In this document: positions 5,901 through 27,626 of the stretch, piece by piece
Position numbering within the stretch: the stretch's first letter is position 1
Layout of the letters: every line of letters begins with the position of its first letter
Assembly: GCA_020720045.1 (NCBI GenBank)
Contig: DYPH01000059.1
Coordinates: 1-32,823 of the forward strand
Length of the DNA stretch: 32,823 bases
Reading direction: 5' to 3'
Source of the DNA: Sorangium cellulosum
GTDB taxonomy: Bacteria; Myxococcota_A; Polyangia; Polyangiales; Polyangiaceae
The notes under the pieces: generated by a model
Seen by the model: only the letters and a program-made list of their open reading frames with translations
What the model was told of the DNA's origin: nothing
Databases searched by the model: none
Position numbers and translations under genes: made by a program

Positions 5901-6704
5901 TTACCGGCGACCGACGCAGAGGACGGTGCCGACGTTCACGAAGCGCGCGGTGGCGTCGACTCCCGTGCAGGCTGCATCGATCTCCGCGCGCTTGGCCGCG
6001 AGGGCGGCGCCGCAGGGGGAGCTCGGCGCGAGGACGACCGGCGCGCAGGCGCCGAGAGGCCCGTCACCGTCTTCGTCGAGGGCGGCGGCCCGTTCGCAGG
6101 CGCCGAGTTCGCCGCCGTCGCAGGTCGCGCAGGTCCCAAGGAGGCAGTCGCTCTCCTGGGCAAACGCATCTCCGCACCCTTCGGGCGCTCCAGCGACGGC
6201 ACCGAGCAGGAGCGCCTGGCAGGCTTCGACGTCGGGCCGAAGGAGCGTGCCGCGCACCGCGATCGCCGGGCGGATCGGGAGGCCGTCGCCGTCGAAGCGA
6301 CTTGTAGAATACAAGCATTCCGTGCATTCCGTCGACGCGCCGACGCCATCGCAGGCGGCCTGGGACGCGTTTGCGCCGATGCACGCGGCGGCGAGCTGAG
6401 CGACTTCACCGGCCGTGCAGGCGCCCGGCGTCGCTACGGCGATCGTCCCGGAAGGGCCTGGCGCCGGTGCCGCGGCGGCGGCGTAGCAGGCCGGGGTGCC
6501 ACCACCGTCGACGCTGCTGTCGGCGGAGGAAGTTGCATCCTGCACGCTTCCCCCTTCGAGCACGACGGTCCCGCCGTCGTTCCCGACCTTCGGCTCTTCA
6601 TCGACGTCGCCGCCGCACCCGGCGGCCGGGGCAAAGAGGGCAAACAGGGCGAGCGGGGCTGCGAAAAGAGCGGAAGAAGGCGAGGCGCGCATGGCGGCGT
6701 CCAT
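5901..6704 (-). CDS. Cys-rich lipoprotein, family copy 1
   Basis: 267 aa. Signal peptide with lipobox APAAGC (Cys30 from ATG 6704; an ATG at 6692 is an equally good start). A low-complexity Gly/Asp/Ser linker follows. The ectodomain has about 16 cysteines in the order PAC, C, C, C, TECxxC, AC, GC, C-x4-C-x2-C, C, C, CGxA, C and a final VLC near the C-terminus. The same order recurs in the genes at 17177-17869 and 18171-18932. The protein is presumably surface- or periplasm-exposed and disulfide-stabilised; its function is unknown. It shares no operon with lpdA (115-bp gap). Confidence 0.8.
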   Translation of the reverse strand: MDAAMRASPSSALFAAPLALFALFAPAAGCGGDVDEEPKVGNDGGTVVLEGGSVQDATSSADSSVDGGGTPACYAAAAAPAPGPSGTIAVATPGACTAGEVAQLAAACIGANASQAACDGVGASTECTECLYSTSRFDGDGLPIRPAIAVRGTLLRPDVEACQALLLGAVAGAPEGCGDAFAQESDCLLGTCATCDGGELGACERAAALDEDGDGPLGACAPVVLAPSSPCGAALAAKRAEIDAACTGVDATARFVNVGTVLCVGRR

Positions 6705-6806
6705 GACACACCTGCGCCTACGTGCCTACCTTCTTGGGAGGCATCGCGTCGGAGCGAGGCGCTCGCAAGGTCTCAGCGCCGTCGAGCGACGCAAAGGCCC
6801 GGCCAT

Positions 6807-7517
6807 TCACCAGTCGTTCGGCATTTGAGAAATGAGGAGCCGAAGTTGCGAGGCGGGCTCTGGCATAGACGGCACCACGAACCCCTGCCCGCGAAGGCTC
6901 TTCAACAGCGCTTTGCCATCGACGCGCGTCCAAAGCGGGTGCCGCTCAAAATCGACCTTGACTTGCGTCAACTCGGTTGAGCAATCCACGAGCGAGCCGA
7001 GGTTCTCAAAGAATGCGCGCAGCGAACAGAGCGCCGAATTCTCGTCGGTCACGCCTTCCGTATCCAGCGGAGGCTCGACTTTACGGTTACGAATTTTGTA
7101 CACGCCCGTTTCCTTGACCGCGCGCGCGATATCAAGCCATTTTCTCGACGCTGCTTCTTGGTCGCGCAGCGCTCGCTGATTGTCAGTGAGAGCGGCGTCG
7201 TCGAGCAGATAGCTTTCCATGCAATGGCGCTGAAGCGACCGTGCTTTCGCATTCCCAAATGGGTTCGCACTTCGCTCGCTTACGAGTTCTTCTGAAAGAA
7301 AGTCGCGGTCACGGATGGCAAAACACAGCTCCCCTTTCTTGCGAGCTTCTGCGAGTGTACCGTCTATGATCGTTTTTGAACCAACCCCTTCGACTTTGAT
7401 CCGGTTGTTGAACTCAGAGAACTGGTTATCGAAGACGCGTTGCAAGATTTGTTTCGACAGCCCACTCGGCACATCTTCGCAAAACAGCGTAATGTCTCTG
7501 GTACCTCGGCGGCTCAT
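6807..7517 (-). CDS. DUF4435/Toprim-like nuclease subunit (AriB-like)
   Basis: 236 aa from the ATG at 7517, which overlaps the stop of the upstream ATPase gene (ATGA). Motifs match the DUF4435 branch of Toprim/OLD-type nucleases: an early Glu in TLFCEDVPSG (Glu14), a GSK turn (46-48), the acidic pair in IRDRDF (Asp70, Asp72), and the family-typical RHCMESYLLDD (about 98-107). In PARIS anti-phage systems the DUF4435 protein AriB is the effector released by the ATPase AriA. The close pairing here suggests the same logic. The protein is shorter than AriB as I recall it, so a related but distinct system is possible. The product has no signal peptide and should be cytosolic. Confidence 0.65.
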   Translation of the reverse strand: MSRRGTRDITLFCEDVPSGLSKQILQRVFDNQFSEFNNRIKVEGVGSKTIIDGTLAEARKKGELCFAIRDRDFLSEELVSERSANPFGNAKARSLQRHCMESYLLDDAALTDNQRALRDQEAASRKWLDIARAVKETGVYKIRNRKVEPPLDTEGVTDENSALCSLRAFFENLGSLVDCSTELTQVKVDFERHPLWTRVDGKALLKSLRGQGFVVPSMPEPASQLRLLISQMPNDW

Positions 7518-8560
7518 GGCGCGACCTCTTGACCGAAGGGTGTAATGGTCACGAGCGACTCCGACGGGCAGAGGTTCATCAGCTCCTCCGAATGGGTAGT
7601 GACCAGGAATTGATTGTTGGCCTCGCCGCCCGCTTCGCAGAAACGGAGCATCGCTCGCTGCCACCGTGCGTGGAGATTGAGCTCCACCTCGTCGATAAGA
7701 ATCACCGAGTGGAACGGCCGCTCGTGCACAAAATTTGCGACGAGTTTCAAGACTTGGCGCTCGCCCCCGCTGGTGCCGATCATCGAGTAACGGGAAGCAT
7801 CACCGTCGCGGGTGAATTCAAGGTCGACGCCATCGTCCGCGTAGGGGGAGTCCTTCAGCTCCACGGGGGGCGCAAGTCGCGCGATCAGGCGCTGCGCGTA
7901 AGCCCATGGGTTCGCCCCACGGCTCTCCGCGTCCCACCTGGTTCCAGCGACGAACGCTTGGCTAAGCCTACTCACCTCCCGCTCAAGAGGCACCCCGGGA
8001 GCAGCCGTGATTCGCAGGTTTTCGTTTCCGGCCAATACGCCTGCGCGCGCCTGGTCCAAGTAGAGGAGTCCCCCGACATTTTCGAGTTCGCGCTCGACGC
8101 GGAAGCCCCGCGAAAGTGCCACTTTCAGTCGGGCTCTTCCACGAAGCGCCTGGGCGTCCCCCTCCACGGAGTGCGTCCCGTCGGGCATGAAGCGCACGGT
8201 AACCCCGTACGCGCTCTTGGGGCGGATCGGCACTTCCCGTCCTGACAACAGCTTTTCAACCCTGCTATCTGCCGATATCTCATCGTCGGTAAGGGAAAAT
8301 CGGAGTGTAACCGACCAAGGTTCGTTGACACGAGGGCGAAGGCGAGGGTTGAACGGGTCGAGATCGACACGCCATCGAGGCGAGTTTGCCTGCGAGATAC
8401 CGGCGTAGGCGCAATGAATTGCGTCCAGCACCGTCGTTTTTCCGTTCCCATTCGGCCCAGCCAACACTGCTAGCGTGAGGGGCCGCCCCGAGGAGTCGCA
8501 GAAGTCGACGTCAATCCGAGGATGGCGGAAATTCGCGACGGAAACGTGGTGGAGCCGCAT
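7514..8560 (-). CDS. ABC/SMC-type AAA ATPase of a PARIS-like pair (AriA-like)
   Basis: 348 aa. Walker A GPNGNGKT at 35-42, ABC signature TSGGERQ at 263-269, Walker B VILIDEVELNLH at 286-297, and H-loop TTHSEEL at 321-327. This is the compact AAA_15/AAA_21 arrangement found in OLD, Gabija-like, retron-associated and PARIS defence ATPases. There are no membrane segments, so it is not a transporter subunit. Its stop overlaps the start of the DUF4435 gene, so the two are translationally coupled. The 125-bp gap to hipA upstream can hold a promoter. Sensor and inhibitor of the downstream nuclease is the likely role, by analogy with AriA. Confidence 0.75.
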   Translation of the reverse strand: MRLHHVSVANFRHPRIDVDFCDSSGRPLTLAVLAGPNGNGKTTVLDAIHCAYAGISQANSPRWRVDLDPFNPRLRPRVNEPWSVTLRFSLTDDEISADSRVEKLLSGREVPIRPKSAYGVTVRFMPDGTHSVEGDAQALRGRARLKVALSRGFRVERELENVGGLLYLDQARAGVLAGNENLRITAAPGVPLEREVSRLSQAFVAGTRWDAESRGANPWAYAQRLIARLAPPVELKDSPYADDGVDLEFTRDGDASRYSMIGTSGGERQVLKLVANFVHERPFHSVILIDEVELNLHARWQRAMLRFCEAGGEANNQFLVTTHSEELMNLCPSESLVTITPFGQEVAP

Positions 8561-8685
8561 GGGCGCTGGCTAGCAGGGAACTCCGTCGCGGGAACAGCGC
8601 AAGCCAGTCCCATTCACGATTTTTCGCAGCGCCGCCCCACGGGCGAGGTGAGCGATACTCGCATGAGGAGGATCGTCGGCCCAGG

Positions 8686-9942
8686 TTAGAGCTTGGCGTT
8701 TGCCAGGTGCGCGTCGACGGCCCGGCGAACGAGGTCGGGCACCTCCGGCGCCATCGCCTTCCACGTGGCGCGCGCATGCGCGACGAACGCTTCGAGGGCG
8801 TCCGCAACTTCGTCCTCGCCCGCTGGCGCGGATCGAGGAACAACCTCCAGCGTCCCTCCCCCTTCCGTGAACGACGCGACTGCCAGGAGGTCGTCGAACG
8901 TCACGGAAGCCAGGTCGGGGCCGGGGTCCACGGTCGGTGCGTCAGCGGGCAGGAGCCGAAGCGCGAGGTTTCGCTGGATGCTCGGGTAGGCCACCGTCGC
9001 GACGACGTCGTACAGCGGCGTCAATCGCGCATGGAGACCGTCCGGGTAGAACAATGCCCAATTTTTGAGGTGGGCGTCGGCGTTGCCGCAGAGGACGGAA
9101 AACGCCACTCGCTTGAGGTATTCGAGGAAGTCATCCGCGCCGCAGAGCCCGTGGACGACGCCACCGATCGCCGCGTGGTGCACCCAATCGAGCTCAAGGA
9201 TCTCGGGGGCGTATTTCCACGCCGGCGGGACGTCGAAAACCTGGGCGAAGTCCTCTTGGTGGATGCGGGCCTTCGCTCCCACTCGGCCAGCGACTCGGTC
9301 GTAGCGACGCACGAGCAGCACGTCTTGATCGCCGTCAAACTCCTCGGGAAGGTGTTCGATGCTCGTCCCGCGGACGATGCGATGCTCGGGCACGACGAGA
9401 CCGCTCCGTTCCGCCCAGGTCAGCATCGCGTGCTCGTTCCGGACGAGCTCGGTGTAGCTCGGGGAGCCGAACTTTGCGATCCACGCCCCCTCTTCGCCAG
9501 CAAACGGGACGGTGAGGCGATTCTGGTCGTCCGACAGCGCTAGCTTCGCTTGAACGCCGGTCAGCGCAAAACGGTAGGGGCCGAACGGGCTCGCGGCATC
9601 GGCGGGGCCTTCGCCAAACGAGTCGGCGGCCACCCGCACGGCGCCGGGGAGATCGCCCCCCAAGCGCAGAAGCATCGCGTAGTCCCGGTTCGGGACCGCC
9701 CCGAGCGCCCCCTCCACGATTTTCCGCAGTGCCCCCTCCGGCAGGAGATTTTGAAAGAACGGGGGGAGCGGCTTGCCGTGGAAGGAGGGCGCCTCGCTGT
9801 CCTCAAACACGCGACCGAGGACCGGGCGACGGGGGTTGGCCAGGTAACTCTTGGCGAGCGTAAACGCGGTCTCCCCCGACGGCGACGCCGGGGTGAGTTC
9901 GCCGACGGCCACCTCCCCGAGATCGACGCGCGCCGGCGTCAT
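8686..9942 (-). CDS. hipA: HipA-family Ser/Thr kinase toxin
   Basis: 418 aa, full length for HipA (E. coli about 440). The N-terminal coupling domain is present (FFQNLLPEGALR near 62-73). The ATP-binding part includes ALTGVQAKLAL (126-136) and Lys157 in WIAKFG. Then come LLVRRYDR (209-216) and HQEDFAQVFDVPPAWKY (228-244). The catalytic loop is GNADAHLKNW with Asp289 and Asn294, and the metal-binding Asp312 lies in LTPLYDVV. All kinase residues I can check are intact, so the enzyme should be active. HipA kinases phosphorylate tRNA synthetases or other targets and are normally held by HipB, a Cro-type HTH encoded just upstream. Here the upstream, ATGA-overlapping gene encodes a DUF262 protein instead, and no HTH gene is visible. 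Confidence 0.9.
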   Translation of the reverse strand: MTPARVDLGEVAVGELTPASPSGETAFTLAKSYLANPRRPVLGRVFEDSEAPSFHGKPLPPFFQNLLPEGALRKIVEGALGAVPNRDYAMLLRLGGDLPGAVRVAADSFGEGPADAASPFGPYRFALTGVQAKLALSDDQNRLTVPFAGEEGAWIAKFGSPSYTELVRNEHAMLTWAERSGLVVPEHRIVRGTSIEHLPEEFDGDQDVLLVRRYDRVAGRVGAKARIHQEDFAQVFDVPPAWKYAPEILELDWVHHAAIGGVVHGLCGADDFLEYLKRVAFSVLCGNADAHLKNWALFYPDGLHARLTPLYDVVATVAYPSIQRNLALRLLPADAPTVDPGPDLASVTFDDLLAVASFTEGGGTLEVVPRSAPAGEDEVADALEAFVAHARATWKAMAPEVPDLVRRAVDAHLANAKL

Positions 9943-11618
9943 CGGCCGCCCCCACCACGCGCGAGATGGGCGACGCTCGGGGCGTCGTCGCGCTCCCGTT
10001 CGGTGCGCGCGTCGACGAAAGCGGCAACCCACCCCTCAAGCACGGCGGCACGGCGCGCCACGAAGGCGTTAGCGTCCCCGCGCAAGAGGCTGTCGCGCGC
10101 CGCCTCATCGATGCCGTGAGACGCGAGCGCCCCGACATCCGCCTCCCCGATCGCGACGCGCCAATTCCGTACCGGCGGATGAATCAGCTTCGTGGCCAAG
10201 CTCGGGAACCAGTTCTCTGTCTGCGGAACGACGCGCTGAAGCAGGCCAGTCGCGCCGTCGCGCTCGCCTTCGACGCCGAACAGGTCGTCGAGCGTGAGCA
10301 CTTCGCCGGTCCGAAGGTCGCGGGGCCGTTGGTGGAGCAGCGCGCACGCGTGGACCTTTCCACGCGCGCCGTTGAGCGAAAACGCGCCGCTGGATGGGCG
10401 TACGCTTCGATCGGGCGCCTCACCGCCGTGCCGCAGGAGCCGCGCGACCGAGCCTTCCTCGTCGCCGTCACGGATCTCGTCGAGGTGCCTCTGCGCGGCA
10501 CCGGATGCGCTGCCGTGGCGCTCGTCAACGGCGCCGCGCCAGTACCAGCGGGCGAGCAAGCGCCGACTGCGGTCGGATGGGCGCGGAAACAGCGCCCAGA
10601 AGCGCGCGAGCACGATCAGCGGCAGTTCGTACGCGCAAAGGCTGGCGTGGGGGACGCCGTTCGCCTGGAGGAACTCCGCCACCGCACCGAGCGCCGGGCG
10701 GAGCGTCTGAAGCGCGACTGCCGCGTCTTGAACGGCAAAGGTATGCGGGTCGAGCCCGCCGACGCGCGTTCCGTGGATCCCTTCGAGGGCGTTCAGGAGG
10801 GTACCGGCCTTGATCGCTCCGAAGCCTCGTTCGACGGTCGCCCGCGTTGACCACGCGAGGTCACGCCCCTGGCCAATTTTGGACCCGACGAGGGCGTTAA
10901 AGACCTCGTCGCGCTCCATGGGCTTTCCAGATGTATTCACGCGGTCAAAGACGTGTCGAAGGGTCTCTTCGTCGGCGCCGTCGACCTCGTAAAGCGGGAG
11001 CTGATACTCGCGGAGCTGTTTGCCGAGGTCAAAGTAGGCCCGCTTCGTTTCGCGCGGCAGCTCGGCGGGCACCCACTCAGACAGGGCAGTTGCGTCAAGG
11101 ACGACGTAGAGGGGCACGTCGGGTGCACGCCCGTCGGGCGCGACCGCAGGCCTCCCTTCCCGCTCGTCGGCGCGCAGCGCGCGGTAGCGGAACGAATCTT
11201 CTTGGACGGAAAACACGAGGGTGCGCTCGTCGACGTCCGGGCGACGCCCGAGCGCCTCCCAGAGCGTTGTGATCCGCTGCTGCCCGTCGACGACCAGGAA
11301 GCGGTCGCCGCTTTCGGGGGGATCCTCGACGCCGCGAAGCCCCCGTCCACCGGCCGTGGGCGGCGGGTTTTTCCAGAGGAGCAGCGTACCGATGGGGTAG
11401 CCGCGGTAGACGCTATCGGCCAAAGCGCGGCGATCGTTCCCGTCCCACTTGAGGCCCCGCTGGAAGTTCGGCATGCGAACGCGCCCTTCGCGGACGCGCT
11501 CGAGCAGGTCTTCCACCGTGATGGCGACGGCGCGGGCACGGGTTCTCCGAGCCGGCGTCTCGCCGGGCGGAGACACCCCCATCGTCATCTTCGGCGCCTT
11601 TGGGCGGCTCTCGTGCAT
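9939..11618 (-). CDS. DUF262 (GmrSD N-terminal type) protein coupled to hipA
   Basis: 559 aa. The DUF262 hallmarks are clear in the N-terminal half: FQRGLKWDGNDRRALADSVY with YPIGTLLLWK (about 53-86), the nucleotide-binding VVDGQQRITTLWEAL (about 113-127), and FDRVNTSGKPMERDEVFNAL (about 229-248). DUF262 is a ParB/Srx-like fold that hydrolyses nucleotides in GmrSD, BrxU and SspE. The C-terminal half is helical. I see no clear DUF1524 HNH motif (HxxP...N...H), so DNA cleavage is doubtful. Its last codon overlaps the hipA start, making a two-gene operon. It may sense invading DNA or nucleotides and control HipA, but this is inference. The start at 11618 has a weak RBS; ATG at 11588 is an alternative. 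Confidence 0.8.
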   Translation of the reverse strand: MHESRPKAPKMTMGVSPPGETPARRTRARAVAITVEDLLERVREGRVRMPNFQRGLKWDGNDRRALADSVYRGYPIGTLLLWKNPPPTAGGRGLRGVEDPPESGDRFLVVDGQQRITTLWEALGRRPDVDERTLVFSVQEDSFRYRALRADEREGRPAVAPDGRAPDVPLYVVLDATALSEWVPAELPRETKRAYFDLGKQLREYQLPLYEVDGADEETLRHVFDRVNTSGKPMERDEVFNALVGSKIGQGRDLAWSTRATVERGFGAIKAGTLLNALEGIHGTRVGGLDPHTFAVQDAAVALQTLRPALGAVAEFLQANGVPHASLCAYELPLIVLARFWALFPRPSDRSRRLLARWYWRGAVDERHGSASGAAQRHLDEIRDGDEEGSVARLLRHGGEAPDRSVRPSSGAFSLNGARGKVHACALLHQRPRDLRTGEVLTLDDLFGVEGERDGATGLLQRVVPQTENWFPSLATKLIHPPVRNWRVAIGEADVGALASHGIDEAARDSLLRGDANAFVARRAAVLEGWVAAFVDARTERERDDAPSVAHLARGGGGR

Positions 11619-11699: not shown

Positions 11700-11975
11700 C
11701 AAAAGGCCCTCGAAATGCCCCGCTGCGGCACCAAGTGTCACTGTAGGGCATTCGGAATGCTCTCTTCCGAGGGGGCGCGCTCCAAAAAGGCCCTCGAAAT
11801 GCTTTTTCGAGGCACTTGGTGCCAGTTTAAGGCATTCGGAATGCCTTTTTCGAGGGGTCACGCCCCCCAAACGGGCATTCGAAATGCCTTTTTCAGGCAC
11901 TCGGTGCCAGCTTTAGGCATTCGGAATGCCCAAATCGAAGGGGCACCGTCGAAAAAAAGCATTTCGACCCCCTTT
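11700..11975. repeat. 84-85-bp intergenic repeat made of nested palindromes (3 copies plus remnant)
   Basis: No gene lies in this gap of about 430 bp. Three copies each contain GGCATTC-G-GAATGCC (7-1-7 palindrome at 11747, 11831 and 11916; the first copy ends in T) and GGCAC-N3-GTGCC (11727 degenerate, 11811, 11896). Each also has a CGAAATGC half-site and a CTTTTT/CGAGG tract. Copy-to-copy distance is 84 then 85 bp. A remnant (AAAGCATTTCGA) lies near 11958. Reading frames through it differ between copies, so it is non-coding. Confidence 0.85.
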
Positions 11976-12049: not shown

Positions 12050-12877
12050 ATGACGATTTCCAAAGACAGTGACGAGCTCGGGTTCGACCGTGTTGCCAAC
12101 CTCATCCGCGCTGTGCCTGCGACGGCGCTCCGCCCGCGGAACCTCGATATTGGCCAGCTGGTGACGGCGGCGTTCCGCGTGAGCCCGCGCGTGCTGCAGT
12201 TTGAGGCCGACATCGCCGCGCTTCCGCATTCGAAGCATGCGTTGATTGCGGCGATCCCCGACCTCGCCCATGCGATGAGCTACGTCCTCGGGCGCGTCCT
12301 CGCGGCGTCGAAGCCGGTGTACGACGTCGCCGCGCTCGCCGAAGAAGGGGCGAAGGTCCTCGAACTGATCAGCGCCGACCTGCGGACGTTGATGCTCCGC
12401 GGCGTCCTCCCGGCCGGCGCCCTCGACGGCGTGGCGCCTTCGCCCGGCTACCAGGCGCTCGCGAAGAACCTTCGCACGATTTCGTCGGTCGCCCGCGACA
12501 ATTGGTCGCTCATTGAGGGGCGGTCGGGACTCGGCATTGAAGACGTCAAGCGCGCCTCCGAGATCAGCACCGCGATTTACCAACAGACCGCCGAGCGCAC
12601 GAACGACGACCCGGCCCTCGCCGCCCTCCATCTGCTCCGCGACCAGACCTTCACGCTCCTGATGGACGCCTACGAAGAGCTCCGTCGGGCGATTGAGTAC
12701 ATCCGCTTCCACGAGGGGGACGCCGAGAAGTTCGTCCCCTCCCTCTACCCGGGGCGCCGAGGCCGAAGCGCCCGCGACGAAGCGACCGACGAACCGCTGC
12801 AGGCCGATCGCCCCCAGATCGCCCCCGTCGTGCCCCAGGAAGAGCCCCCGATTTCCAAGGATGGTCCCTTCCGCTGA
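12050..12877 (+). CDS. Hypothetical helical protein
   Basis: 275 aa from the ATG at 12050, which follows the repeat cluster directly. The product looks soluble and mostly alpha-helical. It begins MTISKDSDELGFDRVANLIR and has repeated Leu/Ala amphipathic helices, with a disordered Arg/Pro/Glu-rich tail after about residue 235. No signal peptide, membrane segment or catalytic motif is visible. A strong bidirectional terminator follows 20 bp after the stop. I do not recognise the family. Codon use is like the neighbours and it stands alone as a transcription unit. Confidence 0.75.
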   Translation: MTISKDSDELGFDRVANLIRAVPATALRPRNLDIGQLVTAAFRVSPRVLQFEADIAALPHSKHALIAAIPDLAHAMSYVLGRVLAASKPVYDVAALAEEGAKVLELISADLRTLMLRGVLPAGALDGVAPSPGYQALAKNLRTISSVARDNWSLIEGRSGLGIEDVKRASEISTAIYQQTAERTNDDPALAALHLLRDQTFTLLMDAYEELRRAIEYIRFHEGDAEKFVPSLYPGRRGRSARDEATDEPLQADRPQIAPVVPQEEPPISKDGPFR

Positions 12878-12896
12878 AGAGAGAAGCCCCAAAGAA

Positions 12897-12935
12897 AAAG
12901 CGGCGCAAGGAGGGATCCTTGCGCCGCTTTCTTTT
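12897..12935. terminator. Bidirectional intrinsic terminator
   Basis: A 15-bp perfect stem (AAAGCGGCGCAAGGA / TCCTTGCGCCGCTTT) with a GGGA loop, flanked by A-runs on the left and TTTCTTTTTC on the right. It lies between the convergent genes ending at 12877 and 12954. Confidence 0.93.
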
Positions 12936-12953
12936 TCGTTTGCTTCGATACGT

Positions 12954-13421
12954 CTACTGAACGCGTGCCCGACGTGTGCGCGCAAGGCATGGCCAGGCTA
13001 ATGTACGAGGGGTGGGACCATCAAATCGATTGAGACTCCGTGCCAAAGAGAGAGCCCGATCGACGTCGAAGTGGAACCACAAGACGTGCGGCCTCGAGTC
13101 TCCTCGAAATGCGACGGTCCAGCGGCTGCGCGGGCTTGTGCGCCTACCAGAACGTTCGAAAGGGAAAAATGGCTCCGGGCTTGAGCTTACGTCGTCGAAA
13201 ACTAGGATCCCGAATCGATGCGCACGCAGGCGAAGCAGTCCCGCGTCGCGACGAAGTTCGTACCGTTGAAAGACGACTGAGCCTGCCAGAAGAAAGAAAA
13301 CAAGCGCGTACCCGAGAATCACGGGTCCGATCGAGGGCATCGAGGCAAGGGCGCAAAGCCCCGCGCTGAGCGCGATAATGGCGGCACGCGCATACAGCGA
13401 ACTCCGAATAGTCAGGGTCAT
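12954..13421 (-). CDS. Small membrane protein, candidate Rhs-tip immunity protein
   Basis: 155 aa. Two hydrophobic helices near the N-terminus (about residues 10-26 and 30-50, the second LGYALVFFLLAGSVVF) are followed by a cytoplasmic or periplasmic Arg/Phe-rich domain of about 100 residues. The start codon overlaps the TGA of the Rhs gene (AAATGACC), and AGGAA sits immediately before it. A small gene overlapping the end of an Rhs gene is the standard position of an immunity gene, and membrane-bound immunity proteins are known for periplasm-acting toxins. The assignment rests on position; I recognise no family. Confidence 0.6.
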   Translation of the reverse strand: MTLTIRSSLYARAAIIALSAGLCALASMPSIGPVILGYALVFFLLAGSVVFQRYELRRDAGLLRLRAHRFGILVFDDVSSSPEPFFPFERSGRRTSPRSRWTVAFRGDSRPHVLWFHFDVDRALSLARSLNRFDGPTPRTLAWPCLARTRRARVQ

Positions 13422-15520
13422 TTCCTGTCGATCCCAACTCCAAAGCCCGCCGAAGCGTGATCGCCAAACGCCCCTCCGTCAACAAAGCTGAATCCACCAA
13501 TCTCGGAGGGAGTGGAAAAACCACCGGCGCCGACCCCCAGTCCGCACACAAGGGGAACCTCAGCGCCAATCTTTCCTTCGCCGATGAAGATTGGCTCAGA
13601 GTCAATCACCGTTTTCCCGTTTTCGCGCGTAACGAGCGTTTCGACGCCGTAGAGTCCTGCGACGTAATTCTGTTCACCACCGAATTTCGCCCCGGCGGCA
13701 AGAATCGATCCCACGAAAAAGCCGTGATGACTATCGAACCCGGCAAGAACCGCTCCCTCGCCTTCCGGTGAAACCGGTAGGAACGGGAGGTGACCGCTGA
13801 ATGCGAAAAAATAGAAAATACTCCAATTGCCCGTAGGATCAATCCGATTAACCGGGTCCCCTTCCGCGTACTCATACAGATTCACACCCCCCTTGTGGAG
13901 GCTCGGATCGCGTTCGAGCCAGCGGCCGATTTCGGGGTCGTAGGTTCGCGCTCCGAACTGGACGAGCTTCGTCGTCGGGTCCCAGAGGCCGCCGGCGAAA
14001 CCGAAGATGAAGCGATCGCTCTCGGCAGTGCTCCCGGTGACGGCGACGATGTTCCCGAAGGCGTCGTAGCTGCGGGTGAAGACGGGGTTCCCGAAAGCGT
14101 CGGTGAGACCGATCACCGAACCGAGGTGGTCGGTGACGACGCGCCTGAGGCTCCAGGAGGAACCGCCCGTGGAGACGGCCACGAAATCGGGGACATGGCT
14201 GTGGGACGTGTAGAGGAACACGCGGTTGACAGTGTAGTTCGCGTTCAACTCGGCCACCGGGTGGAGGCCCCCGGCGTAGACGTAGCGGGTGACGACGCCG
14301 CCCTGCGTGCGCGCCGCGCGGCGACCGGAGGCGTCGAGGGTGTAGTCTACCGTCACGCCATTGGTGATGACTGTGCTGATCGGGCCGAGGTCGTGGTGCG
14401 TGTACGTGGCAGTCACCGGCCCCGACTTCGCCGCCAAGCGCCCTTCGGTGTCGTAGGTGTAGCTGGTCGTCGCACCGGCCACCGTCCGCGTAAGCAGGCG
14501 GTCGTCCTTCTCATTGGCGCCGTCCGAGTAGGTCATGGTCCCAACGCCGTCGGAGAGGCGATTGCCGTTGGCGTCGTAGCTGTACGTCGTCGTCGCGCCG
14601 TCGCGCGTCGCCGTCTGGATGTGACCCGCGCCGTCGTAGGTGTAGGTCGTCGTCGCGGAGACGAGCCCCGTCTCCGTTCGCGAGGAAATGCGGCCGATAC
14701 CGTCGACGCCGAGCGCCTCCGCGTACACCGCCGAGCCGCCGCTCGTCTTCGTGTACTCGAGTGAGGCGAGCGCCCCATAGCTGTCGAACGTGCGCGCCTC
14801 CGTGACGGCGCCGCCGGTCTGCGCCGTCACTTCACCGCGCGGGCCGCGGGTCATCCCGATGGCGGCACCACCGGCGGTGATGCCGGTCGTAAGGTCGTCG
14901 TTGTCCCGCGTCGCGGTGACGTTGAACGACGTGCTGCCGAAGGTCCACGTCGTGGCGGAAGGGGCGCCGTGCTGATCGTAGGAAATCCACTGAAAGCCGT
15001 GCTGGGTCGCGTCGTGGAGGAACTCTTGGGCGACCAGGTAGCGGCCGATGAACGTACGGTTGCGCGTCAGGTTGTTGTAGCTCTCCGTCGTCCGCCGTCC
15101 CCACGCGTCCACGGTGTACGTTCCGATACTGCCCGACTGTGTTTCGATCCCCGTCTGCACCCCCCGCGTCGCATCATAGGTGTTCATGAGCGTGCGGCCG
15201 GGCGACGAGAAGGACCACGGCTGCCCATCCTCGTTGTAGGTCCACTGGGACGCACTCGTGCTTGGTGCCGTGAACGACACAAGACGGTTGAGGGCGTCGT
15301 ACCCGAATCCGTTCTGGCTTGCGGCAGGCGCCGTGAGCGTCTGCAGGTTTCCGGCAGCGTTGTACGAGAAGTGGGTCTCACGCATGCCCATCGCCGCGTC
15401 GGTCGGCAGCGTCTCTGTGGTGACGCGACCGAGGCTATCCCGCGTGTACGACCGCGTGAGCGAGATGTCGCCGCCGGTCGTCGTGACCGAGGAGAGGAAA
15501 CCATCGGCCCCATACGCCAT
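13418..15520 (-). CDS. Rhs/YD-repeat protein, C-terminal part with variable tip
   Basis: 700 aa from the first ATG after the lesions. Many YD repeats are visible (for example TYSYDANGNRLSDG and TYTYDGAGHIQTATRDG). The core ends in the classical GARTYDPEIGRWLERDP ... NLYEYAEGDPVNRIDPTGN. The last roughly 130 residues after DPTGN are the variable tip: hydrophobic and Gly-rich, containing FDSHHGFFVGSILAAGAKFGG and ending FGVGIDRK. I recognise no toxin family in it. The same frame continues upstream to a TAA at 15563-15565 and would join the gene at 15435-16979 if a frameshift were corrected. As it stands this half has no signal peptide and no obvious RBS, so it may not be expressed. It overlaps the candidate immunity gene. 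Confidence 0.75.
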   Translation of the reverse strand: MAYGADGFLSSVTTTGGDISLTRSYTRDSLGRVTTETLPTDAAMGMRETHFSYNAAGNLQTLTAPAASQNGFGYDALNRLVSFTAPSTSASQWTYNEDGQPWSFSSPGRTLMNTYDATRGVQTGIETQSGSIGTYTVDAWGRRTTESYNNLTRNRTFIGRYLVAQEFLHDATQHGFQWISYDQHGAPSATTWTFGSTSFNVTATRDNDDLTTGITAGGAAIGMTRGPRGEVTAQTGGAVTEARTFDSYGALASLEYTKTSGGSAVYAEALGVDGIGRISSRTETGLVSATTTYTYDGAGHIQTATRDGATTTYSYDANGNRLSDGVGTMTYSDGANEKDDRLLTRTVAGATTSYTYDTEGRLAAKSGPVTATYTHHDLGPISTVITNGVTVDYTLDASGRRAARTQGGVVTRYVYAGGLHPVAELNANYTVNRVFLYTSHSHVPDFVAVSTGGSSWSLRRVVTDHLGSVIGLTDAFGNPVFTRSYDAFGNIVAVTGSTAESDRFIFGFAGGLWDPTTKLVQFGARTYDPEIGRWLERDPSLHKGGVNLYEYAEGDPVNRIDPTGNWSIFYFFAFSGHLPFLPVSPEGEGAVLAGFDSHHGFFVGSILAAGAKFGGEQNYVAGLYGVETLVTRENGKTVIDSEPIFIGEGKIGAEVPLVCGLGVGAGGFSTPSEIGGFSFVDGGAFGDHASAGFGVGIDRK

Positions 15521-16979
15521 CGTCTGCGTGCGGCCCCCCTGAGTCGCCGTGACCGGGCGATCTTAGGCGTCGTAGGTGAAGTCGATGGCCGAGGTTCCCC
15601 CCTGGGGCAGCGGGATCAGGCGCTGCGAACACCGGCTGGCTCCACTGGACGCCGTTCGGCAGCTCGTCGATCGTGTAGTCGGTCGCGTAGGTGAAGCCGA
15701 TCGACGACGGCAGGTCGAGCGGCATCGCTGCCGGCGAGCCGTCGGTCATCTCCGTCATTCGAACGTTCACGTTCGTGAGCCCGGGGGCGTTGGTGATCGT
15801 GGTGCCCGGCGGAATAATCAGGCGCGCGCGGCGCGGCTTGTTTCCCGTGACACCTGCGATGCCGTGAAACTTTTCCGCTTCGACGACAACGGCCGCCTCG
15901 CCCGCCGCCGGGAGCGTGACGTTCATGGCGGCTTCAAGCGGCGTCGTGACCACGTCGGGGAGTCGATCGCGGCTGCCCCAACGGGTTTCGACGACGCGAA
16001 GCACGCTCGAGATCCCCTCCTGGGCGAACTTCAGGGTGACCGGCTCGCCGCCTTCGATGGCAAAGCGGTACCAGCCATTCGCGTCGGTGCTCGTCGTGCC
16101 GGCCGCGGTGTCGCGCCCGAGCGCCGAAACGGTGACCCCAGCCACGCCGTTCCCTGCGGCATCCACCACGCGTCCGCTGAGAATCGACCCGTGGGACGCA
16201 TCGAAGGGGGTCCCCCCTTGCGCCGTGATCGCTGCCCCGATCTCGTCCGTCTTGCGCGGAAAGAGATCGCTGGGGCTCGGGGCACTCGGAGTGCTCGGGA
16301 CGCAAGCCGGGCTGGTCGACGTCGTGTAGGTAAAGGTCGCCTTCCCGTCGGGCCCGATGCTGCAGACATTGCCGGAACAGCCGTTCCAGGAACCGAGCCC
16401 CTGCCGCCAGATCCCGGGCCCCGACAGCATGGTCTGGCAGCCCTCCTGCGTGCAAGGGTCGCCGTCGTGGACGTCAGCGATAAAGTCGGTCCGATACCCG
16501 TTAAGCGAAAGGCGGCTGGTGGACCCTTGGGTCCACGTCGCGGTCACTCCCGAAAGCGGACGGTCGAAGGCACCGTCCAACTCAACCCTCGACGGGCTGG
16601 TGCAATCGTTGAGATAGATCGAAGCTCCGGTGCCCCCGTAGGCACATGTCACAGTCGACGGCGAGCCGCTTCCGAACGAAAAGGTCAGGTAGACGCTTTG
16701 GTAGGTCGTCGGGGCGGGGAATGCCGGAAAGCGCTTGCTGAACCAAGTAAGAGACGACGGTCGCAGAATTCGGCGGTTCGCATCGAAAGTACCCACGTTT
16801 CCGCTACTTCTCGATACGTTGATGCCGCCGCTGGTTCCGCAGGCGGCGAACGCGCCGTCGTTCACCGTCCACGCGCCGGTCGTGGTGGCAACATCGGGCG
16901 GCGAGGCGTTATCGGCGACGCAGGCGAGGAGTGGGAGGAGGGCAAGGGCAACTACAGTGGGTCTAAACAGGGTTCTCAT
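15435..16979 (-). CDS. N-terminal half of a broken Rhs lipoprotein
   Basis: 514 aa from the ATG at 16979. Lipobox LLPLLAC with Cys20. A Cys-containing beta-rich region follows, then a carboxypeptidase-regulatory/Ig-like unit (SGRVVDAAGNGVAGVTVSAL, GWYRFAIEGGEPVTLKF). Next is the ZU5-like region usual before Rhs repeats (ARLIIPPGTTITNAPGLTNV, MPLDLPSSIGFTYATDYTID, VQWSQPVF). After VFAAPDPAAPGG the reading leaves the Rhs frame at a run of six G (minus strand; + 15597-15602). With five G it would continue GTSAIDFTYDA, reach TAA (15563-15565) and then DRPVTATQGGRTQTMAYG. The jump from SQPVF straight to YD repeats also suggests an internal deletion. The tail after about residue 460 is out of frame and probably meaningless. 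Overall this is a pseudogene in two pieces. Confidence 0.75.
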   Translation of the reverse strand: MRTLFRPTVVALALLPLLACVADNASPPDVATTTGAWTVNDGAFAACGTSGGINVSRSSGNVGTFDANRRILRPSSLTWFSKRFPAFPAPTTYQSVYLTFSFGSGSPSTVTCAYGGTGASIYLNDCTSPSRVELDGAFDRPLSGVTATWTQGSTSRLSLNGYRTDFIADVHDGDPCTQEGCQTMLSGPGIWRQGLGSWNGCSGNVCSIGPDGKATFTYTTSTSPACVPSTPSAPSPSDLFPRKTDEIGAAITAQGGTPFDASHGSILSGRVVDAAGNGVAGVTVSALGRDTAAGTTSTDANGWYRFAIEGGEPVTLKFAQEGISSVLRVVETRWGSRDRLPDVVTTPLEAAMNVTLPAAGEAAVVVEAEKFHGIAGVTGNKPRRARLIIPPGTTITNAPGLTNVNVRMTEMTDGSPAAMPLDLPSSIGFTYATDYTIDELPNGVQWSQPVFAAPDPAAPGGNLGHRLHLRRLRSPGHGDSGGPHADDGVWGRWFPLLGHDDRRRHLAHAVVHAG

Positions 16980-25533: not shown

Positions 25534-25680
25534 ACCGGCAGCCTGACAAGCCTTTCGCGGGTGAGTCAAGCGACGAAGAACGCTCGCGCCGCCGCAATCG
25601 ACTGAAGAGACGTCGCGCCCCCTTCGCCTGGGGCGCCAACGTCCCACCTTCGCCCCCACGAAGGCTCACGGGCGCGGAAC

Positions 25681-25878
25681 CAAGGTCCGACCTTGAAAAC
25701 AGGGCTCGCCGCTGCCCCCAATTCAATGTCCGACATTGAAAACAGGGCTCGCCGCTGCCCTCAAACCAATGTCCGACATTGAAAACAGGGCTCGTCGCTG
25801 CCCTCAAACCAATGTCCGACATTGAAAACAGGGCTCGCCGCTGCCCCCAATTCAATGTCCGACCTTGAAAACAGGGCT
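25681..25878. repeat. 43-bp tandem repeat carrying a 15-bp palindrome (5 copies)
   Basis: GTCCGAC begins at 25685, 25728, 25771, 25814 and 25857, an exact 43-bp period. Each unit holds CAATGTC-C-GACATTG (7-1-7 palindrome) followed by AAAACAGGGCTCGCCGCTGC. In copy 1 both arms change together (CAAGGTC-C-GACCTTG), keeping the palindrome; copy 5 changes only one arm. A 43-bp period shifts the reading frame, so the array is non-coding. It lies between the kinase stop (25878) and the lipoprotein start (25533). Confidence 0.9.
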
Positions 25879-27626
25879 CACGGGGCGCGGTTTGCCAGGG
25901 CGAAGACCGGGCGGGTGCCGTCGAAGGTGAGCGTCGCTTTTTCGGGACCGCCGTCGCGGGCAAGCGTGAGCGTCGCTTTCTCGGCGGCACACAGGGGGAC
26001 GCGAAACGCCCCCGACCACGGTCCCTGGGAGAGCGGGCCTGCCGAGGCGATGTAGACGCGCTCAACGGTGCCGACCAGCGCCTGGCACCCAGAAGCAGGC
26101 TTGGCTTCCGGGGCGAGGTGGAAGGCGCCGACTTCGAGGCGCGATGTCGGCTCGCCGGGGAACAGCCCCCGCCAGTTCAAGTGCCCATCGCCAGTAAGGC
26201 GTGGACCGGTCGCCCAGACGGCGCCGTAGGTCGTCCGCCAGGTGTCGAGGGTCGTTGCGAGCGATTTCGCGTCGCCATCGACGTCGATCGCCATGCGTGG
26301 GAGTGTCAGCGGCGGCCCATCGTCGCCGGAGATCTCGAGGGAATCGGGGTGGATCGTGACCGCCGTCATGCCGAGCGGCGCGAGCTCCGACTGGGCGATC
26401 GTCACGCCGTTTCCGTGGGTCGCGATCGCGCCGCGCAGGGAGAACCCGAGGCGCGCCGCCGCTGCCACCGTCCGCCGCTCGGCGATCGCTTGCGTGGCGA
26501 AATAGCCGCCCGTGACGAGCGCAACGAGGAGGGCGCCGGCGACCAGAAGCGGCCACGGGGGGCGTCGACCCGCCGCCCCTTTGGGACGAAAATCAGGAAC
26601 GGGCGCGGCGACCGGAGCACGGCCACGGCGCGGCGCTTGGGCCGGTTCTTGGGCCGGTTGTTGGGTGGCGTCCTCGCGGCTCACATCGAACCGTGTCGCG
26701 GCCGTCGGAAGCGCCAGCGACGCGCGCGGCTTCTTGGGGAGCTCGGACGTGAGCTCCGGCGGATCAGAGAGGGTCGCCGGCAGCTTCGTAAGCGGCTTCA
26801 ACGCCTCCACAAATTCGGTCAGCGACGCGCGCTCGGGGAGATCGACCTGGAGCGCGTGGGCGATGATCGCGTCGAGGGGGGCGAAGGCCGGGTGGTGGCT
26901 GCTCGGCGGCTTGAAACGCCCGAGGAAAATCGCGCCGATGAGCTCGGACATCGTCCCCCCTTCAAAGGGGCGTTCACCGACGGCGAGCTCGTAGAGCGTC
27001 ACCCCGAGCGACCAGACGTCGCTCTTCGCCTCGACGTCCTTCGACGCCGCCAGCTGTTCCGGGCTCATGTACTGGGGCGTCCCGACGATGGCGTCGGCGC
27101 GGGTGATCGCCGCCTCCCCCTCCACCACGAGCTTGGAGATCCCGAAATCGACGACCTTGACGACGCCAGAGGCGCTCAAGAACAGGTTCGCCGGCTTCAC
27201 GTCGCGATGAACGATCCCGGCCGCATGCGCTTCGGCGACCGCCTCGCAGGCTTCGAGCAGGTAGCGCGCCGCTTCGGCGATCGGGAGCCGGCTGCGACGG
27301 GTGAGGACGGTGTCGAGATCCTCGCCAACGAGCCGTTCCATCACGATAAACGGGACGCCGTCGTCCTCGCCGACGGCAAAAATCCGAACGGTATGCGGCC
27401 CAAAGAGGCGCGAAGCGGCTTGGGACTCGCGGGCGAAGCGGGCGACCACTTCCGGCACGTCCATGAGATCGGCGCGAAGGCACTTGATCGCGATGGCGGT
27501 GCCGTTCCGTTCGTCAACGGCGGCAAAGACCTCCCCCATTGCCCCGGCGCCCAGACGCCCTTCCACGCGAAAGTGCGTGCCGATTCGCGTCGGAATTGGG
27601 CGTGACGATGGTGCGGAAGATTTCAT
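25878..27626 (-). CDS. Transmembrane Ser/Thr protein kinase (PknB/Hanks type)
   Basis: 582 aa from the ATG at 27626. The kinase domain is complete: Gly-loop LGAGAMGEVF (25-34), Lys48 in IAIKCLR, catalytic HRDVKPANLFL with Asp142, DFG at 160-162, activation segment GTPQYMSPEQ (182-191). A Pro/Gln/Ala-rich juxtamembrane linker (about 285-355), one membrane helix (357-376) and an extracytoplasmic domain of about 200 residues follow. The last has no PASTA repeats and ends in a Cys-containing beta-rich part (GCQALVG, VPLCAAE). It probably senses an envelope signal and phosphorylates cytosolic targets; these cannot be named. It is divergent from the lipoprotein gene at 27778 (151 bp), which may be its partner. 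Confidence 0.93.
   Translation of the reverse strand: MKSSAPSSRPIPTRIGTHFRVEGRLGAGAMGEVFAAVDERNGTAIAIKCLRADLMDVPEVVARFARESQAASRLFGPHTVRIFAVGEDDGVPFIVMERLVGEDLDTVLTRRSRLPIAEAARYLLEACEAVAEAHAAGIVHRDVKPANLFLSASGVVKVVDFGISKLVVEGEAAITRADAIVGTPQYMSPEQLAASKDVEAKSDVWSLGVTLYELAVGERPFEGGTMSELIGAIFLGRFKPPSSHHPAFAPLDAIIAHALQVDLPERASLTEFVEALKPLTKLPATLSDPPELTSELPKKPRASLALPTAATRFDVSREDATQQPAQEPAQAPRRGRAPVAAPVPDFRPKGAAGRRPPWPLLVAGALLVALVTGGYFATQAIAERRTVAAAARLGFSLRGAIATHGNGVTIAQSELAPLGMTAVTIHPDSLEISGDDGPPLTLPRMAIDVDGDAKSLATTLDTWRTTYGAVWATGPRLTGDGHLNWRGLFPGEPTSRLEVGAFHLAPEAKPASGCQALVGTVERVYIASAGPLSQGPWSGAFRVPLCAAEKATLTLARDGGPEKATLTFDGTRPVFALANRAP

Follow-up and report, generated by a model that had tools for sequence, protein, structure and literature searches.

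A nuclease-dead GmrSD homologue coupled to a HipA kinase: a probable two-gene switch, not yet described, with phage arrest as its most likely role

Introduction

HipA is the founding persistence toxin, a kinase normally encoded together with the small HTH antitoxin HipB, and its natural trigger is unsettled. In a stretch of 32,823 nucleotides from Sorangium cellulosum (contig DYPH01000059.1 of assembly GCA_020720045.1, positions 1 to 32,823, here called the window) a gene for a HipA kinase directly follows one for a DUF262 protein. This arrangement raises the question of what a relative of the GmrSD, BrxU and SspE defence proteins is doing where an antitoxin gene would be expected. A preliminary description, made from the sequence, had proposed that the two genes form an abortive-infection system in which the DUF262 protein restrains or triggers HipA. 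Here we ask whether the pair is a real unit, what has become of the two proteins within it, and which wiring best accounts for both.

The gene pair and its products

The coordinates given for the two genes in the preliminary description are exact when set against the open reading frames and their translations (Table 1), and the overlap that it reported is there as well, the TGA of the DUF262 gene being overlapped over 4 bp by the HipA ATG at 9942 (GGCCGATGACG; ATGA). Its reading of four intact kinase residues was upheld by alignment with HipA of E. coli K-12, which served as the reference for residue mapping, and these residues are present in every DUF262-linked kinase; the FQR and DGQQR motifs that it named are present, and a profile made from four HipB sequences confirmed that the window pair lacks a neighbouring HipB.

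Table 1. Positions in the window of the two genes and of the residues discussed in the text
Feature	Positions	Strand	Basis
DUF262 (GmrSD-like) gene, first of the pair	9939..11618	-	559 aa; open reading frame and translation; Pfam GmrSD_N; PDC-M55C match; AlphaFold2 model
HipA Ser/Thr kinase gene, second of the pair	8686..9942	-	418 aa; translation; Couple_hipA and HipA_C; AlphaFold2 model
FQR motif, DUF262 residues 52-54	11457..11465	-	Among 30 relatives, Q53 without exception, F52 and R54 in at least 90%
DGQQR motif, DUF262 residues 111-115, putative NTP site	11274..11288	-	Invariant in 30/30 relatives
DUF262 Q461-R462, place of the HNH histidine pair in active GmrSD enzymes	10233..10238	-	hhalign against 28 BrxU-like proteins
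HipA Lys157 (E. coli K181), ATP binding	9472..9474	-	Alignment with E. coli HipA; 46/46
HipA Asp289 (E. coli D309), catalytic base	9076..9078	-	Alignment; 46/46
HipA Asn294 (E. coli N314)	9061..9063	-	Alignment; 46/46
HipA Asp312 (E. coli D332), Mg binding	9007..9009	-	Alignment; 46/46

The kinase has the complete architecture of its family. Pfam places Couple_hipA at residues 5-104 and HipA_C at residues 126-330 (6.9e-40), and the AlphaFold2 model (mean pLDDT 88.0) matches E. coli HipA (3dnt) over its full length in Foldseek (1.6e-21). N-subdomain 1, which corresponds to Couple_hipA and is absent in HipT, is thus present by both Pfam and Foldseek. The equivalent of E. coli S150, the autophosphorylation serine of the Gly-rich loop, is kept as serine in 38 of the 46 relatives; in the window kinase it is Ala126, and its two closest relatives (L042, L043) also have alanine there.

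The DUF262 protein was assigned in the preliminary description to the GmrSD/BrxU/SspE type, and this assignment stands, with the qualification that the histidines of the HNH nuclease are lost. Pfam recognizes GmrSD_N at residues 35-243 (1.8e-26), and the PADLOC model PDC-M55C (PDLC04709) gives a full-length match (4e-47, residues 33-541). The AlphaFold2 model (mean pLDDT 86.7) was aligned with BrxU over residues 28-544 (Foldseek/VIA, Z 16.5) and also with SspE and DndI, its N-terminal domain resembling ParB and sulfiredoxin, while a profile of the family aligned over the full length with a profile of 28 BrxU-like proteins (hhalign probability 100, E 3e-42). The QR, DGQQR and F.R.N motifs are invariant or nearly so among the relatives; DGQQR has been described as an NTPase motif (PMC4619093, PMC12137116), and for GmrSD-type enzymes the proposed model has DUF262 as a sensor of modifications that is driven by NTP (PMC12137116). 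The 28 BrxU-like proteins conserve HH..P, N and N, and their histidine pair falls on Q461 and R462 of the window protein. No conserved histidine occupies the HNH columns in the family, and Pfam finds no GmrSD_C (the DUF1524 HNH domain) in the window protein. The loss of the histidines beside an invariant NTP motif indicates that this is a full-length GmrSD/BrxU homologue without the nuclease site, with its predicted NTP site intact. A HipB-like HTH domain within the protein would have told against the proposal of the preliminary description; none was found by Pfam or by a fold search with the model, in which the comparison covered mainly residues 25-399, so that a small unlisted domain farther towards the C-terminus may have escaped it.

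Recurrence of the pair across genomes

Adjacency in one genome only would likewise have told against that proposal, but it is not limited to the source genome. The genome itself holds a second, 33%-identical DUF262-HipA pair on another contig, and the HipA genes of these two pairs are its only HipA_C genes. Across 379 genomes of the phylum, HipA follows on the same strand in 26 of 31 DUF262 hits of at least 112 bits, the window's own DUF262 being left out of the count. Of the five other hits, G357 is situated at the start of a contig, G159 is soon followed by a contig end, G233 has a HipA remnant at the expected place (tblastn, 40% over 52 residues), and G339 and G058:C11 belong to PDC-M55-like operons as their DUF262 component. 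Among 84,980 species, HipA follows 18 of 19 full-length DUF262 relatives (at least 397 bits against the family profile) and none of the 61 other DUF262 loci (at most 214 bits; Fisher p 5e-17). These 18 pairs come from Myxococcota, Pseudomonadota, Actinomycetota, Thermomicrobiales (Chloroflexota or Thermomicrobiota, depending on the source), Planctomycetota and Riflebacteria, so that the pairing extends over six phyla or more. Azospirillum sp. B510 has such a pair (WP_247894530.1, WP_042446031.1). The pair is also present on two annotated Azospirillum plasmids, the kinase being named in RefSeq 'type II toxin-antitoxin system HipA family toxin', and one pair-bearing plasmid is conjugative, with a recombinase gene adjoining.

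The order is DUF262 and then HipA in all pairs; the HipA start, taken as the in-frame start nearest the DUF262 stop, lies between -23 and +10 nt from that stop in 47 of 48 pairs, and 27 of the 48 have the 4-base start/stop overlap. The pair is a real, conserved and translationally coupled two-gene unit. Viral contigs contained 15 DUF262 relatives (best 24% identity), for none of which a profile search detected HipA, and the DUF262 matches in phage records were partial and distant only.

Replacement of HipB and joint inheritance

Upstream of HipA there is either a DUF262 gene or a HipB-like HTH gene, and never both: the HipB profile detected no HipB-like gene beside the DUF262-HipA pairs, and the same profile found such genes upstream of many other HipA genes. 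In a careful IQ-TREE analysis of 68 HipA kinases, 46 DUF262-linked and four HipB-linked kinases form one clade (support 100/99.9). Most kinases outside this clade are HipB-linked, a few having no recognized partner, which argues that DUF262 took the place of HipB. The best tree nests the four HipB-linked kinases among the DUF262-linked ones, and a tree constrained to unite the 46 DUF262-linked kinases to the exclusion of these four is not rejected (p-AU 0.257); HipB may thus have been replaced once, or once with a later return, the tree being compatible with either course.

The two genes are inherited together. Pairwise distances of the DUF262 proteins and of the kinases correlate (r 0.72, with 0 of 2000 permutations as high; r 0.54 in 27 diverged representatives), and a tree of the DUF262 proteins unites all 48 of the HipA-linked ones in a single clade (support 100), which also takes in two PDC-M55C proteins and three single genes. 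The HipA tree mixes phyla, the Azospirillum plasmids grouping, for example, with Myxococcus and Thermomicrobiales, a pattern suggestive of horizontal transfer.

Where a pair has decayed, it is the kinase that is damaged. Intact DUF262 genes were found beside a frameshifted HipA (L075), one with a stop (L099), a truncated remnant (L069) and no HipA at all (L093), and no intact HipA of the clade was seen beside a broken DUF262 gene. This asymmetry, which concerns four loci only, some of them in draft assemblies, is what one would expect if HipA is a toxin. The stop in L099, a Frankia HipA (6683-7927, plus strand), is a single in-frame TAA close to where N-subdomain 1 meets the core kinase, the point of the HipS/HipT split in hipBST; it may mark a pseudogene or a sequencing error.

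Neighbouring genes

Directly downstream of the window HipA, on the same strand and after a gap of 125 bp, lies a PARIS-like gene pair. Its two genes (6807-7517 and 7514-8560, minus strand, overlapping by 4 bp) encode an AAA_21/AriA-like ATPase and then an AriB-like protein, the latter with a weak match to an AriAB fusion profile (1.4e-5). Proximity to defence genes, a point raised in the preliminary description, is nevertheless not general: when PADLOC models were applied to the two-gene flanks of 27 pairs (84 proteins) and of hipBA loci (67 proteins), the former showed no clear defence excess. Matches at E 1e-10 were few in either set (MADS, PARIS, GajA, AbiEii), and the PD-T4-6 kinase models respond to kinases in general. 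No third gene recurs from locus to locus except in a few near-identical neighbourhoods, which leaves the two genes as the unit.

Comparison with known systems

The claim that no described system contains this pair holds for the searchable open literature, in that openly licensed full-text articles yielded no description of HipA paired with DUF262 or GmrSD; in its wider sense it has to be tempered, since a HipA kinase with a partner other than HipB is known from HipA-DUF3037 (HipAD/DS-6/PDC-M66), a validated anti-phage system (PMC13092281, PMC12548924). In that system defence disappears when the kinase is lost, and toxicity appears when DUF3037 is deleted (PMC12548924); HipAD with a catalytic mutation no longer defends against phage (PMC13092281). 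Both are two-gene operons of a HipA-family kinase and a non-HipB partner, but the partner is DUF3037/DUF1829 there and the unrelated DUF262 here: for the window DUF262 protein Pfam gives only GmrSD_N above its cut-off, with no DUF3037, and the PDC-M66 models do not match the window HipA at E 0.1. No complete system in PADLOC-DB 2.0.0 was matched by the two window proteins.

With classical hipBA the pair shares a kinase made up of N-subdomain 1 and the core, the four kinase motifs and an upstream gene that overlaps or abuts hipA, whereas the upstream gene encodes an HTH HipB of about 90-115 aa there and a 559-aa GmrSD homologue here. Gerdes et al. (2021) distinguished ten types of Hip operon by their partner gene, among which non-HTH partners do occur, namely HipS-HIRAN, a gamma-delta resolvase and a Stl-like protein (PMC8262856); DUF262 is the partner in none of these types. 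Compared with GmrSD, BrxU and SspE, the DUF262 protein has full-length homology and the QR, DGQQR and F.R.N motifs, but lacks the HNH histidines and has a separate kinase gene alongside. A nuclease-less DUF262 protein with a separate effector is also seen in ptuXYZ, where a DUF262 protein without HNH lies beside a toxin-like effector (PMC11980606).

The DUF262 component (M55C) of PDC-M55, a PADLOC candidate system of an AAA ATPase, an unknown B protein and DUF262, is homologous to the window protein over its full length, and the two groups are near each other in the DUF262 tree. The window pair differs in having HipA and neither M55A nor M55B, which were found only in other loci, for example L070, L071 and L081. 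In these, M55B-like proteins without a Pfam domain (L070 8557-9657, minus strand; L071 5581-6519, plus strand; L081 5231-6358, plus strand) are flanked by an AAA ATPase on one side and, on the other, by a relative of the window's DUF262 protein. In locus L066 a DUF262-HipA pair (6851-9954, minus strand) has nearby a divergent PDC-M55-like operon of an AAA ATPase, an unknown protein and DUF262 (12217-16142, plus strand).

Proposed mechanism and alternatives

The reading that we favour, and hold to be rather likely, is that the two genes constitute a stand-alone toxin-antitoxin-like module that stops phages, in which a nuclease-dead GmrSD homologue has the place of HipB and gates HipA as the effector. 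The DUF262 protein would bind HipA in a complex and keep the kinase off; with its ParB/sulfiredoxin-type NTP site and GmrSD-like architecture it would act as a nucleotide- and/or DNA-responsive switch, so that the arrival of foreign DNA, probably modified, or a change in the nucleotide pool would release HipA. Freed HipA, a Ser/Thr kinase that by homology may phosphorylate a component of translation such as a tRNA synthetase, would be toxic and would stop growth and phage production. A role for DUF262 as a restraint rather than a weapon is suggested by the loss of its nuclease, by its replacement of HipB and by the fact that the damaged partner is HipA; most likely it holds HipA inactive and releases it on a nucleotide or DNA signal. 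The anti-phage precedent of HipA-DUF3037 counts in favour of a sensor or antitoxin coupled to a kinase, as do the nuclease-less DUF262 proteins with separate effectors in PDC-M55-like operons and ptuXYZ, while the flanks, lacking a clear defence excess, and Ala126 in the window kinase count against the favoured reading. A more specific form of the proposal, in which the pair is a widespread immune module whose nuclease-dead GmrSD, a restriction enzyme made over into a sensor, would recognize modified phage DNA by way of its NTP cycle and, rather than cut it, free a translation-stopping HipA, we put forward only tentatively, as possible and somewhat doubtful.

The same flanks would suit an ordinary addiction or persistence module, in which the DUF262 protein is a mere HipA antitoxin serving plasmid or chromosome maintenance or stress tolerance; the plasmid-borne pairs, one of them on a conjugative plasmid with its adjoining recombinase gene, point the same way, and HipBA has been linked to persistence (PMC8262856). 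An antitoxin of 500-600 aa that retains the complete GmrSD architecture and an NTP site without variation, however, exceeds what an inhibitor needs, and the GmrSD relatives, like HipA-DUF3037, act against phages (PMC12137116, PMC13092281), so we think this account unlikely. The wiring could also be reversed, with DUF262 as an effector or activator that binds modified DNA and is regulated by HipA, which would phosphorylate or release it. DUF262 is indeed the first gene of the operon, the larger protein and the GmrSD-like one, and orphan DUF262 genes exist (L093); yet to our knowledge the HipA kinases so far described are toxins, the relatives of the HipA clade pair with HipB, and with the nuclease site gone the DUF262 family has no known effector activity, which together make this quite improbable. 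It is very unlikely indeed that the unit is a four-gene system that includes the PARIS-like ATPase and AriB-like genes (8560-6807): strand and the short gap favour it in the window, but PARIS-like genes adjoin no other pair and no flanking gene is conserved beyond the few near-identical neighbourhoods, and a four-gene operon was rejected on these grounds. Chance adjacency of two unrelated genes would be a fair reading of the window if it stood by itself; the probability left to it is negligible, as it is refuted by the contrast between 18/19 and 0/61 loci, by the conserved overlap and by the correlated distances.

On the favoured reading, HipA would be wired to a class of proteins whose known members sense modified foreign DNA through NTP hydrolysis, which provides a direct and testable candidate for its trigger. 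DUF262-HipA adds to the published classification a type of Hip kinase operon that is absent from it, and is the second case, after DUF3037, of HipB being replaced by an unrelated partner. It also lends weight to the view that restriction enzymes which have lost their catalytic activity find new use as sensors whose effector can be exchanged, the effector being HipA in this case and M55A/B elsewhere.

Repeat arrays

Between the DUF262 gene and a divergent gene the window contains a tandem array (11747-11930; period about 43/85 bp) with palindromes GGCATTCGGAATGCC, a motif that in this genome is almost confined to the array. The second pair of the genome likewise has a 42-bp palindromic array upstream (L002 1126-1377), of different sequence. 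Such arrays were considered as an operator and this idea was rejected: with an array upstream in 3 cases among 45 DUF262 genes and in 10 among 198 control genes, they are not specific. A further 43-bp tandem array (25678-25879; 4.7 copies, 91% matches), with the palindromic core AATGTCCGACATT, lies far from the pair.
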